This document shows, in pieces, positions 55,495-62,206 of a DNA stretch of 64,000 nucleotides. The notes beneath the pieces are model-generated. The model did no database searches. It had not been told where the DNA came from and worked only from the letters and a program-made list of their open reading frames with translations. Position 1 is the first letter of the stretch, and each line of letters starts with the position of its first letter. This DNA is from Candidatus Eisenbacteria bacterium (lineage in GTDB: Bacteria > Desulfobacterota > Binatia > DP-6), in assembly GCA_035577985.1 (NCBI GenBank), contig DATJZY010000057.1:1-64000 (forward strand), in the 5' to 3' direction. Position numbers and translations under genes: made by a program.

Positions 55495-57668
55495 TCCCGT
55501 CACCGCGCCGGGCGACCCGCGCGGTTACCGTTCTCGCGCTCGCCGTCCTGGCGGCGTGCAACGGGCGCGATCGTCCGAACGTCCTCGTCGTCACCATCGA
55601 CACGCTGCGCGCCGACCGCGTCGGCTGCTACGGCTTCGGGCTCGCGCAGACCCCGACGATCGACGGGCTCGCCAGCGAGGGTGTGCGCTGCGCCGACGCG
55701 ACGACATCGGCGCCGATCACGCTCCCCGCCCACAGCTCGATCATGACCGGGCTCTATCCGCCGGCGCACGGCGTGCGCGACAACGGCAACTACGCGCTGC
55801 CGTCCGAGGCCGTGACGCTCGCCGAGCGGCTCCAGTCGGCCGGCTATCACACCGGCGCATTCATTTCGGCGGCCGTCCTCACGCGTCGCTACGGCCTCGA
55901 CCAGGGCTTCGAGGTCTACGACGACGATCTGTGGTCGGAGGACGAGCCCGAGCTGTTCATGATCCGCGAGCGACCCGCGGCGCGGACGGCGGCGCGCGCG
56001 CTCGCCTGGCTCGAAGACTGGTGGAAGGGCGGGCGGCGCCAGCCGTTCTTCATGTGGGTCCACTTCTTCGACCCGCACCAACCGTACAAGCTGGCGTCGA
56101 TCGACCTCGCGGCGATGGCGCCGACGCCGTACGACGCCGAGATCGCGGAGGCCGACCGCGGCGCCGGCCGCCTGATCGACTGGCTCCGCGAGCACGGTGC
56201 CCTCGACCACACGCTCGTCGTCCTCACGGCCGATCACGGCGAGAGCCTGGACGAGCACGGCGAGCCGACGCACGGCATCTTCATCTACGACGCGACGATC
56301 CGCGTGCCGATGGTGTGGCGCCTTCCCGGGGTGATTCCCGCCAACGTGACGTATGGCGGGCCCGTCCGGCACATCGACATCGTCCCGACGATCCTCGCGG
56401 TGCTCGGGCTTCCCGGCGGCGACACCGTGCAGGGCACGAGCCTTCTCGCCGCCTTCCAGGGCGGCACGCCCCCGATCGACCTCACGCAGTACTCCGAGGC
56501 GCGCCTGGCCGAGGAGGGCTTCGGCATGGCGCCGCTCTTCGGCGTGCGTCACTCGGGGCACAAGTGGATCCAGGCGCCGCGGCCGGAGCTGTACGACCTG
56601 CGCCGCGATCCGCGGGAGCTCCAGAACCTCTATCCGGCCGAAGCCGCGTCGGCGAAGCCGCTCGAGGCCGAGCTGGAAGCCGTGACCGCGGACAGCGCGC
56701 GCCGAGCCCTGACCGCGCCGACGCGCGAGATCGATCGCGAGACCGAAGAGATGCTGCGCGCGCTCGGCTACCTGGCGCCACCCGAGCAGCGCGCCGAGAT
56801 GACGGGTCGCGATCCGAAGGACGGGATGGCGCTCTACAACAAGCTGCAGGAGTCGCGGCAGCTCGTGCAGGTGGAGCAGTGGGATCGCGCCAAGGCATTG
56901 CTCGACGAAGTCCTCGCGGATGCGCCCGAGAACGTGACCGCACGCAACCTCCTCGCCTACGGAGCGGTCAAGCGCGGCGACTACGACGAGGCCGAGCGGC
57001 AGTATCGGGCGTCGCTCGAGCAGCAGCCGCGCCAGCACCGGGTGTACGGGGCCCTCGGCTCGCTGGCGCTCCGGCGTGGCGACCTCGACGAGTCGGAGCG
57101 GAGCTTCCGCAAGGCGCTGGAGCTGGCGCCGACGTTCGTCGAGGCGATGAGCAACCTCGGATTCGTCGAGCTCGTGCGCGGCAACGAAGCCGGCGCGCAG
57201 GAATGGTACGAGCGGGCCATCGCCGTCGATCCGACCTTCCCGCACGTGTACCGCCGCCTGGCGGATCTCTTCTACGACCGCAAGGACTTCGGGCGCTCGC
57301 TCGACTACTACCGCAAGGTCCTGGTGACGCTCCCGGAATTCTTCGAGGTGCTCGTGCAGGCGGGGAACGCCGCGCGCTTCGTCGACGACCCGAAGACCGC
57401 CGCGGACTACTACACGGAGGCGGCGCGTGTCCGTCCCGACTCCTGGATCCCGCCCTACAACCTCGCGTGTCTGCGGGCGCTCGGCGGCGAGCCGGAGCCG
57501 GCGCTCGCGCTCCTGGGACAGGCCGTCGATCTCGGGCTCGATCAGCCGCGGCTGGTCGAGGAGAACGACGACTTCGATTCGCTCCACGCGCAGGCCGAGT
57601 GGCCGGCGTTGCTCGCGAGGACCCGCGCGGCCGAGCAGGCACGCGCGCGGGAGCAGCCGGCGCCCTGA
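55491..57668 (+). CDS. Sulfatase-fold lipoprotein with TPR tail and threonine at the nucleophile site
   Basis: A 725-residue predicted lipoprotein (LAVLAAC, Cys23). The alkaline-phosphatase/sulfatase fold domain covers about 28-410: VTIDTLRADRVGCYGF holds the first metal Asp, and LTADHGESLDEHGE and HGIFIYDATIRVPM carry other metal ligands. The nucleophile region reads TSAPITLPAHSS: Thr77 stands where sulfatases have a Cys or Ser of C/S-x-P-x-R. Thr nucleophiles occur in phosphoryl-transferring relatives, so a phosphoester or phosphoethanolamine substrate is more likely than sulfate. From about 425, five or more TPR repeats follow. It starts at a TTG overlapping the previous stop. Confidence 0.87.
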   Translation: MIPSPRRATRAVTVLALAVLAACNGRDRPNVLVVTIDTLRADRVGCYGFGLAQTPTIDGLASEGVRCADATTSAPITLPAHSSIMTGLYPPAHGVRDNGNYALPSEAVTLAERLQSAGYHTGAFISAAVLTRRYGLDQGFEVYDDDLWSEDEPELFMIRERPAARTAARALAWLEDWWKGGRRQPFFMWVHFFDPHQPYKLASIDLAAMAPTPYDAEIAEADRGAGRLIDWLREHGALDHTLVVLTADHGESLDEHGEPTHGIFIYDATIRVPMVWRLPGVIPANVTYGGPVRHIDIVPTILAVLGLPGGDTVQGTSLLAAFQGGTPPIDLTQYSEARLAEEGFGMAPLFGVRHSGHKWIQAPRPELYDLRRDPRELQNLYPAEAASAKPLEAELEAVTADSARRALTAPTREIDRETEEMLRALGYLAPPEQRAEMTGRDPKDGMALYNKLQESRQLVQVEQWDRAKALLDEVLADAPENVTARNLLAYGAVKRGDYDEAERQYRASLEQQPRQHRVYGALGSLALRRGDLDESERSFRKALELAPTFVEAMSNLGFVELVRGNEAGAQEWYERAIAVDPTFPHVYRRLADLFYDRKDFGRSLDYYRKVLVTLPEFFEVLVQAGNAARFVDDPKTAADYYTEAARVRPDSWIPPYNLACLRALGGEPEPALALLGQAVDLGLDQPRLVEENDDFDSLHAQAEWPALLARTRAAEQARAREQPAP

Positions 57669-57673
57669 GGCGC

Positions 57674-58843
57674 TCAGCCGACGAGGAGCCGCGCGAGATA
57701 TCGCCAGCCGTGCGTGATGTCGGTCACGCAGAAGGCGAGCGAGAGCGCGAACGCGTTGAAGGTGAGGGCGATCGAGAGCGCGTGGGCGACGGGATGCGAG
57801 CGCCACCACTGCACGAGCCCGAGGGGCAGGCGGCGACCGAGTTCGCGCGCGAAGACGCCGACCCAGATGAGACCGATCGCCTGCAGGAAGCCCCAGAGCG
57901 CGAAGCCGGGCGTGTAGCCGTGCCAGAGCCCGCATGACGTCATGGCGGCGATCTGCCCGCCGGCGGCCGCCACACGATGCCCCCATCGGCGGCGCATGAG
58001 CGCGCGCGCGACCGGAATGAAGATGTAGAGGCGGAGCCAGCTGGTGAGCGTCATGTGCCAGTGCTGCCAGAGCTGGACCAGATTTCGCCGCACGAGGGGG
58101 TTGTCGAAGTTCTCCTGGATGGTCCAGCCGAACACGGCGGCAATGCCGATCGCGATGTCGCTGTAGCCGGAGAAGTCGAAGTAGACGCGGAGCGTGTTCG
58201 CGTAGAGGCCCAGGAGCAGCACGGAACGGGAATGCGGGCCCGGCTCGGCGATGATGCCCGCCGACCAGTCGCCCAGGGCGTGCCCCACCACGAGGGCCTT
58301 CACGAGGCCGAACAGCACGCGCTCGAGCCCGCGGCCGACGCGCGTGCGATCGAAGGTCGGCGCCTGCGGCCGGAAGTGCTCGAACGGCTCGATGGGCCCG
58401 GCGGGATACGTCGGCAGGAAGGCCATCCAGCCGAGCACGTCGGCGAAAGCGACTGCCCCGTAGGTCTTCCGCGTGCTCTCGACGAGCGCGGCGACCCCCT
58501 TGAGGGCGATGTACGAGACGCCGAGGAACACGAGGCCGCCCTGCGAGGGGAGCAGTCCGCTGCCGTTCGCGGCGAGCTTGTTCCACGAGAAGACAACGAC
58601 GAAACCGGCGATGCCGGCGGTGGCGAGGGCGCGGGCCCGCCGGATGTCGGTGGTCTCCGCCGCCGATCGCATGAGCAACCAGAGACCACCGGTCACCACC
58701 ACGACGAACGCGAGCAGCCGCACGTCCCAGAGCCCGAGGATCGCGAGGCTCGCCATGGCGACCACGGCGCGCCGGGCCTCCGCCGGCACGACCGTCCAAT
58801 AGATCGGCGCCAGAGCCAGCGTCCCGAGGAGGGCGGGCAGCAT
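57674..58843 (-). CDS. MBOAT-family membrane O-acyltransferase (DltB/AlgI-like)
   Basis: A 389-residue polytopic membrane acyltransferase. The family carries acyl groups across the inner membrane onto a cell-surface polymer. Both signature regions are kept: LWQHWHMTLTSWLR (His261/His263) and the invariant His308 in SCGLWHGYTPGF. FLPTYPAGPIEPFEHFRP and VYFDFSGYSDIAIG are also diagnostic. It is slightly shorter than AlgI. The acyl carrier protein gene lies 19 bases upstream on the same strand, and DltD- and DltX-like genes are divergent, so I read it as the DltB-like part of an acylation system. Confidence 0.93.
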   Translation of the reverse strand: MLPALLGTLALAPIYWTVVPAEARRAVVAMASLAILGLWDVRLLAFVVVVTGGLWLLMRSAAETTDIRRARALATAGIAGFVVVFSWNKLAANGSGLLPSQGGLVFLGVSYIALKGVAALVESTRKTYGAVAFADVLGWMAFLPTYPAGPIEPFEHFRPQAPTFDRTRVGRGLERVLFGLVKALVVGHALGDWSAGIIAEPGPHSRSVLLLGLYANTLRVYFDFSGYSDIAIGIAAVFGWTIQENFDNPLVRRNLVQLWQHWHMTLTSWLRLYIFIPVARALMRRRWGHRVAAAGGQIAAMTSCGLWHGYTPGFALWGFLQAIGLIWVGVFARELGRRLPLGLVQWWRSHPVAHALSIALTFNAFALSLAFCVTDITHGWRYLARLLVG

Positions 58844-58862
58844 GCCGCGTGACGCGCGGTGC

Positions 58863-59126
58863 TCAGCGCGCGGCCTGCCGCGCCACGTAGGCGCGGATCA
58901 GGCGGAGCGTGTCGAAGTTCCCGACCACGATGTCGCGGTCGGGAACGGCGATGCGGAAGCGTTCCTCCAGGATCGTCGCCAACCGCACGAGCGCCACCGA
59001 GTCGATGAGGCCGCTGGTCACCAGGCGGGTGTCGGGGCCGACGTCGGTCGCGGCGATGCGCAGCTCGCGCTCGAGGTAGTCGCGGACCGCCGCGTCGAGC
59101 GCGGGCTCGTCGATCGGCATTCGCAT
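58863..59126 (-). CDS. Acyl carrier protein (DltC-like)
   Basis: An 87-residue acyl or peptidyl carrier protein with phosphopantetheine-attachment Ser43 in GLIDSVALVRL, preceded by the typical helix RDYLERELRIAATDVGPDTRLV. The gene is directly upstream of the MBOAT gene and presumably donates its thioester-bound acyl group to it. No adenylating (DltA-like) enzyme is encoded nearby, so loading must come from elsewhere. In-frame ATGs at 59126 and 59120 are both possible starts. Confidence 0.92.
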   Translation of the reverse strand: MRMPIDEPALDAAVRDYLERELRIAATDVGPDTRLVTSGLIDSVALVRLATILEERFRIAVPDRDIVVGNFDTLRLIRAYVARQAAR

Positions 59127-59226
59127 CTACCTACCGCAGGCCGGGCACGGGGTTCAAACCGCACGCGGTGTTCGGCGGCGCCGTTTGCTTGACAGCCGCG
59201 CCCCGCCGAGTAGCGTCGGACGGATC

Positions 59227-60351
59227 GTGCGCAACACCAGCGCGGCCGGCTCGCCGCTCACCTGGATTCTCGCGGTCGCGTTCACGCTCCTGCTGGGAGC
59301 GGCCATCACGTCGCGGCCGGTGCTGTGGCGCCCGGCGCTCTTCGAGCGCACGCGCGACATGACCCAGGTGGTCTTCGCGCAGACGTTCACCGCGGCGCGC
59401 GAGATCTACGGTCCGCCGCCCGACGATCGACCGGTGGCGGCGCTGCTCGGGAACTCGCGCGTGTGGCTGGCGGGACACGATCCGTTCGTGCAGCGCGAGG
59501 TCGATCGCCTCGGCGCGCGCATCCGCGTCGCGAACCTCGCGATCTTCGGGGCGGGGACGGGCGACTTCGAGGTCCTGTCGCGCCATCTGGATCACCTGGC
59601 GCCGAAGACGGTCCTCGTCACGGTCGACGGCACCGATCTCCTCGACACGCCGGGGCATCCGGTGTCCGGCCTTCCCGCGCGTCTCCTGCACATCGGATGG
59701 GCCGACGGACCGATTGCGCCGGACGGCTCGATGGCGCGACTCGACCGCTGGGGTCGGACGCTGTGGCCACTCTATCGCTTCCACGAGTTCGCGCGCGCCG
59801 TGCTGATCGACCGCGTGGCACCGCCGGTCGAGCCGGCGCCGTTTCCGACCCACTTCGCGGACACCCGCGCGGTGTTCACGTACATGCACGGCGATCGCGG
59901 CGCGGCGGCGGAGGCAGCCTACGCAGCGTGGCGCCGCGATCCCAGCTTCGCGCGCTTCATCGACTACCTGACGATCGGAAGCAGCAGCTACCTCGAGATG
60001 GTGCGCGATCGCGCGCGGCAGGCGCGGCCGCTTCGCGACGGCGATCCCGGCGTGCGTGCGTTCGACGTGCTGCTGGCCCGTCTGGTGGCGACGGGTCGCC
60101 GCACCGGCGTCGTGCTGATGCCGCAGAGCCCGCTGCTCGACCAGGATCCGACCGGCGAATACGCGATCCCCGGCTTCTCCGACGCGGCGGCCGCCACGAT
60201 CGGGCGCGTCGCGGCCGCGCACGGGGTGCCGGTCCTCGACGCGCGTCACGCGCTCGGGCCCGACGCCTTCATCGACTTCGATCACCCGTTCCCGGAGCTG
60301 AGCGGCTTCCAAACCCGGCTCGCCCAGGAGGTCGTGCGTGTCTCGTCCTGA
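59227..60351 (+). CDS. DltD/AlgJ-like SGNH-fold membrane-anchored protein
   Basis: A 374-residue protein with one N-terminal signal anchor (LTWILAVAFTLLLGAAI) and a periplasmic SGNH hydrolase domain. The nucleophile is Ser77 in LLGNSRVW, and the catalytic pair is Asp350-x-x-His353 (DFDH) near the end, as in DltD, AlgJ/AlgX and PatB-type proteins that place or remove acyl groups on exported polymers. The GTG at 59227 is chosen because the anchor follows at once; an in-frame TTG at 59185 is less likely. It is divergent from the ACP-MBOAT pair across about 100 bases and overlaps the DltX-like ORF by 14 bases. Confidence 0.85.
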   Translation: MRNTSAAGSPLTWILAVAFTLLLGAAITSRPVLWRPALFERTRDMTQVVFAQTFTAAREIYGPPPDDRPVAALLGNSRVWLAGHDPFVQREVDRLGARIRVANLAIFGAGTGDFEVLSRHLDHLAPKTVLVTVDGTDLLDTPGHPVSGLPARLLHIGWADGPIAPDGSMARLDRWGRTLWPLYRFHEFARAVLIDRVAPPVEPAPFPTHFADTRAVFTYMHGDRGAAAEAAYAAWRRDPSFARFIDYLTIGSSSYLEMVRDRARQARPLRDGDPGVRAFDVLLARLVATGRRTGVVLMPQSPLLDQDPTGEYAIPGFSDAAAATIGRVAAAHGVPVLDARHALGPDAFIDFDHPFPELSGFQTRLAQEVVRVSS

Positions 60352-60469
60352 ACCTGCGCCGCCCCTGGGTGCGATCGTGCTTCGTGCGGCTCTCTATGCG
60401 CTCGCGATCGTCGTGCTCGTCTTGTTCGCGCCGGGCGACGGCCGCGTCTTCATCTATCAGGGGTTCTGA
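60338..60469 (+). CDS. DltX-like 43-residue membrane peptide
   Basis: A 44-codon ORF beginning at a GTG inside the end of the DltD-like gene (14-base overlap). It encodes one transmembrane helix (AALYALAIVVLVLFA) between a Pro-rich N-terminus and the C-terminus GDGRVFIYQGF. The last six residues fit F-x-Y-x-x-F, the C-terminal motif of DltX peptides, in which the Tyr is thought to carry the acyl group between MBOAT protein and DltD. Length, topology, terminal motif and gene context all agree, although sequence identity over so short a peptide cannot prove homology. Confidence 0.78.
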   Translation: MSRPEPAPPLGAIVLRAALYALAIVVLVLFAPGDGRVFIYQGF

Positions 60470-60511: not shown

Positions 60512-62206
60512 GTGGGCGTCGACTGCCTTGTGATCGGGGCCGCCGAGTTCGACCGCGACCGCGAACGGGAGATCTTCCTCAAGGTCCACCGCGGGGACGC
60601 CGCGGACGGTTGGGGGAAGTTCCTCGCCCTCAACTACGTCGAGTTCGAGGGGGACGCCTTGATGGCGAACCAGCTCGCCAGCGTCGCGCACCGCTCCGCG
60701 CGCGGGCCGCTCGCCCGGGGCGGCAACGGCTTCGCCTACGCCGACGTCTCCATGCTGAGCTCGTGGCGCACGCCGCTGCTGGGCGGCATGTGGATCTACC
60801 AGGCGCTCAAGCAGCGCGGCTTCGAGGTGGCGCTCGTCCAGCACGTGCAGCTCCAGGCGGCGCAGCTCGAGGCGGCGCTCGCCGAGCAACCGCGCGCCAT
60901 CGCGATCTCGACGACGCTCATCACCTCGCCGCTCGAGATGAAGGCGCTCGTGCGCCTGTGCCGCGAGCGTTCGCCGGCGTCGTACATCGTGCTGGGCGGC
61001 ATGAGCATCTGGAACCAGTTCCAGGTGAGGAAGGCCGAGAACGAGCAGCTGCCGGCCGGCGCCCCGCGCGAGGACGAAGGCGATCTGCTCGGGAGCTTCG
61101 GCTTCCTCGGCGCCGATGCGCTGATCGTCGACCCCTACGGGATCGAGACCCTCGCCGAGCTCCTGGGGCGTCTCAAGGCGGGCCGTAGCCTCGACGGCCT
61201 GGCCAACACGGTGCGCTACTCGAAGGGCGCGCCGGTCTCGCGGCTCGATCGCACGGGCGAGGTGTTCGACGCCGCGCGCATGCGGATGGACTGGGACCTG
61301 GTCGAGAACGAGCACATCGGGTCGGTCGTGAACGTCCGCACGCAGATCAGCTGCCCGTTCCGCTGCAGCTTCTGCAGCTACCCGACCACGCAGGGGCCTG
61401 TGATCAAGGCCGAGTTCGACGCTTTCGAGCGCGAGCTGCAGGCGCTCTCGCGCCGCGGCGTCGACACGCTGATGATCATCGACGACACGTTCAACGTCCC
61501 GCCCAAGCGCTTCATGCAGGTGCTCGAGATCCTGCGGCGCCATCAGTTCCGGTGGTACAGCTTCATCCGCTGCCAGTTCCTCGACGCGGCGCAGGTCGAG
61601 ATGATGAAGGCGAGCGGCTGCGTCGGCGTCTACCTCGGCCTCGAGTCGGTCGACGACGAGACGCTCGAGCGCATGAACAAGACGGCGACCGAGGAGCTGT
61701 TCCGCCGCGGCATCGGGCTGCTGGCGGAGCGCGAGATCCTCACCTACGCGTCGTTCATCGTCGGCTTCCCGGGCGACACCGCCGACACCGTTCGCAAGGT
61801 GCAGCGCTTCATCGAGACGAGCGGCCTCGACTACTACAACCTGAAGCCGTTTTGGTACGACCACTCGACGCCCATCGCGCAGCGCGCAGCGGAGTTCGGC
61901 CTGAGCGGGCAGGGGTACAACTGGCAGCACGATCGCATGAACGCGACGCAGGCCTATGACCTCATCCGGGATCTGATCCTCGACACCCGGAGCCGTTACG
62001 TCGGACTGCACAGCGGAGAGCTCTGGGAGATCGGTCAGTTCGGTGCCCGAGGGCTGTCGAAGGGACACATCGACGCGGTCTACGACGCCCACAATGCGAT
62101 GCTGAAGCAGGACCTTGCGGGGCGAGGAGGCGAGGACAAGACGCGCGCGTTCACCCGGCTCCAGTCCCAGCTCCGTGACGTCGAGCTGACCCCAGCCGCC
62201 TGGTAG
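60512..62206 (+). CDS. B12-binding radical SAM enzyme, PhpK-like
   Basis: A 564-residue radical SAM protein with an N-terminal cobalamin-binding-like domain (about 1-240: VDCLVIGAAEFD at the start, PRAIAISTTLITSPLEMKAL, SYIVLGGMSIWNQ) and cluster cysteines Cys281, Cys285 and Cys288 (CPFRCSFC). CVGVYLGLESVDDETLERMN and ASFIVGFPGDTADTV are typical of B12-radical SAM methylases. The layout resembles PhpK-type P- or C-methyltransferases of natural-product pathways. The GTG at 60512 has only a distant GAGGGGGG site. No recognisable biosynthetic partner lies in the window. Confidence 0.87.
   Translation: MGVDCLVIGAAEFDRDREREIFLKVHRGDAADGWGKFLALNYVEFEGDALMANQLASVAHRSARGPLARGGNGFAYADVSMLSSWRTPLLGGMWIYQALKQRGFEVALVQHVQLQAAQLEAALAEQPRAIAISTTLITSPLEMKALVRLCRERSPASYIVLGGMSIWNQFQVRKAENEQLPAGAPREDEGDLLGSFGFLGADALIVDPYGIETLAELLGRLKAGRSLDGLANTVRYSKGAPVSRLDRTGEVFDAARMRMDWDLVENEHIGSVVNVRTQISCPFRCSFCSYPTTQGPVIKAEFDAFERELQALSRRGVDTLMIIDDTFNVPPKRFMQVLEILRRHQFRWYSFIRCQFLDAAQVEMMKASGCVGVYLGLESVDDETLERMNKTATEELFRRGIGLLAEREILTYASFIVGFPGDTADTVRKVQRFIETSGLDYYNLKPFWYDHSTPIAQRAAEFGLSGQGYNWQHDRMNATQAYDLIRDLILDTRSRYVGLHSGELWEIGQFGARGLSKGHIDAVYDAHNAMLKQDLAGRGGEDKTRAFTRLQSQLRDVELTPAAW

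Follow-up and report, generated by a model that had tools for sequence, protein, structure and literature searches.

A compact locus in the genome of a diderm bacterium probably encodes an envelope-acylation machine that follows the plan of the Gram-positive Dlt system and is served by a different loading enzyme. The locus occupies the minus and plus strands at 57674-60469 of the window, the term used here for the whole stretch of 64,000 nucleotides that was analysed, and consists of an MBOAT, an acyl carrier protein (ACP), an SGNH protein and a micropeptide ending in FIYQGF. The carrier appears to be charged by a ligase of the fatty acyl-AMP ligase (FAAL) type, whose gene lies elsewhere in the same genome.

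Organization of the Locus

The four genes are found exactly where the earlier note had placed them. The minus strand carries the genes of a short, DltB-type MBOAT of 389 aa (57674-58843; Pfam MBOAT, E 1.2e-16) and of the ACP, a protein of 87 aa (58863-59126; Pfam PP-binding, E 9.3e-9). The plus strand carries the gene of a DltD-like SGNH protein (59227-60351) with an N-terminal hydrophobic helix and a weak Pfam GDSL match (E 2.4e-4); its start at 59227 was set from the orthologues, and further upstream starts exist. The micropeptide gene (60338-60469, plus strand) begins with GTG and encodes 43 aa. Its ORF begins before the SGNH stop, with an overlap of 14 bases, and its ribosome-binding site, AGGAGG (60326-60331, plus strand), falls among the final SGNH codons. 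The product is DltX-like, with one hydrophobic helix and the predicted acyl-shuttle motif FIYQGF (60449-60466, plus strand) at its C-terminus. Tyr40 of this motif is the predicted acyl acceptor.

Six orthologous systems were compared, that of the window and those of G006 (L039/L061), G051 (L041), G148 (L062), G149 (L063) and G150 (L064 with L106). The MBOAT and ACP genes of the window stand opposite those of the SGNH protein and the micropeptide, and this divergent layout was earlier described as a set split between two operons. The layout is as described; as a departure from the norm it does not hold, since the genes are divergent in four of the six genomes with the system. The divergent arrangement is the usual one for the system and no sign of a lost part. 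BamA exceeds its curated cut-off in a profile search of the window's genome, and the host is therefore diderm, as had been supposed.

Two neighbouring genes were also noted. A sulfatase domain fused to TPR repeats (55500-57668, plus strand) ends beside the MBOAT gene, and several further MBOAT loci in the class have a similar sulfatase gene nearby. On the other side, 42 bases after the micropeptide, lies the gene of a B12-binding radical-SAM protein (60512-62206, plus strand), whose closest family is that of the P-methyltransferase PhpK, at 358 of 600 bits. It was considered as a partner of the system and rejected, having no match in the orthologous loci.

The MBOAT

The structural model of the MBOAT (pLDDT 89.6) has DltB as its best PDB structure match (E 3.1e-13, TM 0.75), and His263 and His308 are invariant in the orthologue alignment. 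Against the curated DltB model, TIGR04091, the protein scores 162 bits, with a cut-off of 375. This score was first accepted as support and then dropped, since MBOATs with a fused motif reach about 135-184 bits against the same model, so that a DltB score below the cut-off is not diagnostic.

The chain ends in ARLLVG, two residues past the core profile, without a C-terminal shuttle motif. Motif-fused MBOATs extend about 70-145 residues further and end in FIYFQF or similar. In a tree of 57 MBOATs, in which DltB is represented by one fragment and several branches are long, 35 of the 36 motif-fused proteins fall into one clade (100/99), to which neither DltB nor the separate-peptide MBOATs belong. 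The six systems form a clade of their own (100/100), which is joined by a two-member sister group (93/96). With regard to membership in the PatA/AlgI kind, the window MBOAT thus lacks the fused motif and stands outside the fused clade. The earlier separation of the locus from AlgIJ-type acetylation, by its ACP and separate peptide, is supported. A survey of the phylum, covering 395 genomes, recovered nothing but the window's own copy at E <= 1e-55.

The Carrier and the SGNH Protein

The predicted phosphopantetheine site of the ACP is Ser43, which belongs to an (I/V)DS motif and is conserved in all eight aligned carriers. The protein reaches 15.9 of the 52.35 bits required by the DltC model TIGR01688 and, judged by its sequence, is a carrier of another subfamily than DltC. 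Its gene adjoins or is near that of the MBOAT in all six systems.

The six SGNH orthologues have in common the motifs G-[ND]-S-R and D-x-x-H, which correspond in the window to Ser77 (GNS) and to Asp350 and His353 (DxxH), all three invariant in the orthologues. GDSL matches are obtained for two of the orthologues (E 3e-6 to 3e-7). A model built from four sequences, in which confidence is moderate (pLDDT 68.5), resembles GDSL lipases and DltD (3bma, 7dxm), the matches having a probability of 1.00 but an E of only about 2e-3. In sequence searches, neither the curated DltD models nor the PDB sequences gave a match to DltD.

The Probable Loading Enzyme

In four of the six loci (G006, G051, G149 and G150) the gene of an adenylate-forming enzyme lies beside that of the ACP. 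The PDB entries nearest to this linked ligase are FAALs (3pbk, E 2.4e-83), and fatty acyl-AMP ligase is also the best NCBIfam model for the enzymes of G006 and G051, at 380 and 378 bits, below the cut-off of 600. The orthologue of the window genome is unlinked and lies outside the window (G000:C185:25828-27531; 685.9 bits), and that of the G148 genome (L062) is likewise present and unlinked. The adenylating ligase had earlier been described as absent. This is true of the window locus and not of the genome, because the orthologue sits on contig C185, nor is it true of the system, in which the ligase is linked in four cases and unlinked in two. Since the ligase of the window genome is unlinked, its pairing with the ACP is presumed there from orthology. 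The relocated gene (L059:8773-11547 for its surroundings) is convergent with another SGNH/GDSL gene, and large polytopic membrane proteins are encoded nearby.

The six ligase orthologues are 46-61% identical to one another and 35-38% identical to the window genome's own FAAL paralogue. Among 148 genomes of the class, matches to the ligase beyond E 1e-160 come from the three genomes with the system's MBOAT and from G050, in which the ligase occurs without a recognised MBOAT of the system's type; its gene there is cut short by the end of the contig. In a literature search, no report was found that ties a FAAL to an MBOAT/DltB or MBOAT/SGNH system.

In the sister group, a comparison of sequences indicates that an enzyme of the LnmK type takes the place of the ligase. 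Its two members, G023 (L042, 7316-10158) and G056 (L043, 4506-7399), have a gene for an LnmK-family acyltransferase/decarboxylase near that of the ACP, with scores of 176 and 173 bits against TIGR04098 (cut-off 100) and an E of 7e-15 to LnmK in the PDB. The gene of a FIYQGF peptide directly follows the LnmK gene in both, and the SGNH homologue is several kb off. LnmK is present in the two sister genomes and in none of the six FAAL genomes, and the FAAL in all six of the latter and in neither sister genome. The catalytic residue of LnmK, which we take to be Tyr62, appears conserved in the alignment with the sister-locus enzymes. PDB entries label LnmK as a methylmalonyl-CoA:ACP acyltransferase/decarboxylase, and LnmK genes accompany propionyl-derived branches in polyketides (PMC9396626).

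Separate peptides also occur in sets of other composition. The window genome holds a second set, outside the window on contig C77 (L051:5152-7978), which comprises an SGNH protein, a short MBOAT and a FIYTEF peptide; an ACP was not detected in it. Similar short MBOATs with FIY[TA]EF peptides are found in five further genomes of the class, G024, G030, G031, G032 and G036, where an SGNH neighbour is recognised only in some. Two sulphate reducers, of the Desulfobacteraceae (L066; 5458-10185) and of Pseudodesulfovibrio (L077; 3798-9241), combine an ACP and a short MBOAT with a peptide that ends in FRYLGF and FRYMGF, respectively. Both of these sets are placed inside apparent surface-polysaccharide clusters, and each set follows a conserved gene of about 450 aa.

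The related sets in which no ACP was detected, one of them in the window genome itself (L051), would agree with an MBOAT that draws on acyl-CoA, as PatA and AlgI do, the peptide still acting as shuttle and the ACP and ligase belonging to a separate lipid or natural-product pathway. All studied MBOATs except DltB use acyl-CoA (PMC10213974), which also speaks for this reading. It is nevertheless unlikely, because an ACP accompanies the MBOAT, directly or at a short distance, in all of the six systems as well as in the two LnmK sister loci, which jointly make up one MBOAT group (93/96), and because ligase and MBOAT co-occur.

It is quite improbable that the set is a true Dlt system, which would transfer D-alanine or another amino acid and would depend for loading on an amino-acid ligase that is encoded elsewhere in the genome and was not recognised. 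The five-part plan is common to both, the MBOAT has the DltB fold, and the genome encodes many adenylate-forming enzymes. However, the best of these reaches 102 bits against the DltA model in a profile search of the window genome, and none exceeds the cut-off of 559.85 bits, so that the lack of DltA reported earlier is supported. Moreover, the ligase that is conserved in all six systems and linked to the ACP in four relatives is FAAL-like, no protein of the set passes the DltC, DltD or DltX model, and the host is diderm. A machine on the Dlt plan with a FAAL-type loading enzyme accordingly remains the preferred reading.

The Micropeptide

The conservation of the 43-codon frame argues that the micropeptide is a real gene, beyond chance. 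It is present in all six systems, directly behind the SGNH gene, with the C-termini FIYQGF, FIYQAF, FVYQAF, FVYQGF, FIYEAF and FIYQEF, all of which conform to F-[IV]-Y-[QE]-x-F. The search of related loci for short ORFs ending in F-x-Y-x-x-F, which the earlier note had proposed, thus recovered the peptide throughout; the ORF is conserved, and its Tyr and terminal Phe, far from varying freely, are kept in every system. The position of the start codon is identical in all six, and in each a GGAG stands 7 bases upstream of it, still within the final part of the SGNH gene. The substitution score of the micropeptide frame, 2.65, is the highest of the six frames (1.15-1.9 for the others), and divergence differs only moderately among its three codon positions.

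The motif is also specific. The fetched loci, about 602 kb in all, contain 4,922 ORFs of 30 aa or more, of which 33 end in F-x-Y-x-x-F; one overlapping locus was entered twice in this count. Each of the 33 is part of an MBOAT system, either as the C-terminus of a fused protein or as a small ORF. Because the loci were picked for their MBOATs, the remaining ORFs in them serve as the background. Profile searches gave no Pfam or NCBIfam match for the micropeptide, DltX (PF12459) included. The peptide had been called DltX-like from its ending, and the motif, start and ribosome-binding site conserved in six of six systems uphold this description. That the ORF is a chance frame in an ordinary MBOAT/SGNH pair beside an ACP, as its lack of a family match, its GTG start and its mere 43 codons might suggest, is already contradicted by this conservation, by the specificity of the motif (33/33) and by an MBOAT without the fused motif that the pair systems carry, and has next to no probability.

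Proposed Mechanism

The FAAL-type ligase encoded on C185 would activate a carboxylic acid and load it onto Ser43 of the ACP. From the ACP, the MBOAT would carry the acyl group through the membrane and place it on Tyr40, in the FIYQGF end of the micropeptide. The SGNH protein, which is anchored in the membrane, would receive it from the micropeptide on Ser77 and finally esterify an acceptor in the envelope, plausibly a surface glycan. We infer this order of transfer by analogy with Dlt and PatAB; for DltX and PatA it is established that the acyl group passes to the Tyr of the motif and then to the Ser of the SGNH protein (PMC12148441).

Three relatives (L062, L063 and L064) adjoin glycosyltransferase genes, which hints at a surface glycan as the acceptor. 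Teichoic acid is unlikely because the host is diderm, and the acceptor would accordingly be another molecule. The apparent loading enzyme is FAAL-type instead of a D-alanine enzyme, and the surface molecule therefore probably receives a different acyl group. The earlier note had expected as much, and the expectation is likely to be right.

Implications

MBOAT/SGNH pathways other than Dlt have been said to lack a carrier and a DltX-like microprotein (PMC12148441), and DltB has been described as the only MBOAT whose donor is not acyl-CoA (PMC10213974). Both features stated to be peculiar to Dlt, a carrier as donor and a separate DltX-like microprotein, occur here in diderms whose loading enzymes are of two other kinds; in addition, there are loci that have a separate shuttle peptide but no detected carrier. 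There is about as much to be said for as against the broader view that carrier, MBOAT, micropeptide and SGNH protein form a chassis for acyl export in general, Dlt being only one version of it. On that view the loaders would be exchangeable, with DltA serving for D-alanine, a FAAL for fatty acids or other carboxylic acids and LnmK for a group of the propionyl type, and some diderms would bear undescribed surface esters.

The system itself predicts new surface ester groups. The pattern of the tree, with a fused clade and the separate-peptide MBOATs outside it, offers a handle on the evolution of the Tyr shuttle. The spread of the motif is reportedly the subject of a 2023 paper in Nature Microbiology, which may already list some of these systems. 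A practical rule also follows: where a short MBOAT lacks a C-terminal FxYxxF, an unannotated micropeptide should be looked for nearby.

Comparison with Known Systems

The closest parallel is Dlt (DltXABCD) of Gram-positive bacteria, which likewise comprises a carrier, a short MBOAT of the DltB fold, a separate micropeptide ending in FxYxxF, an SGNH protein and an adenylate-forming ligase. The present set differs in its diderm host, in a ligase that is FAAL-like, not DltA, and unlinked in the window genome, in its divergent genes, and in proteins that stay outside the DltC, DltD and DltX models. It would work like Dlt and yet is not filed as Dlt, because the test for DltA came out negative and no curated Dlt model is passed.

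PatA/PatB and AlgI/AlgJ share with the set an MBOAT, an SGNH protein and a Tyr-containing C-terminal motif. Their MBOAT carries the motif itself, as a fusion on additional helices, and draws on acyl-CoA, whereas here a separate peptide and a carrier are found. The system's ligase is nearest to the FAALs (FadD32/FadD28 and the Legionella enzyme 3pbk), which load carrier proteins; the known members, however, serve lipid, polyketide or peptide assembly. LnmK, of the leinamycin pathway, is known from polyketide beta-alkylation and not from envelope acylation. An enzyme of its family accompanies an ACP, an MBOAT and a FIYQGF peptide in L042 and L043 and is absent from the window genome. Finally, the sets of the sulphate reducers resemble that of the window in having an ACP, a short MBOAT, a separate peptide and SGNH-like neighbours, with a ligase-like neighbour in L066, but their MBOATs belong to another clade and their gene order is different.
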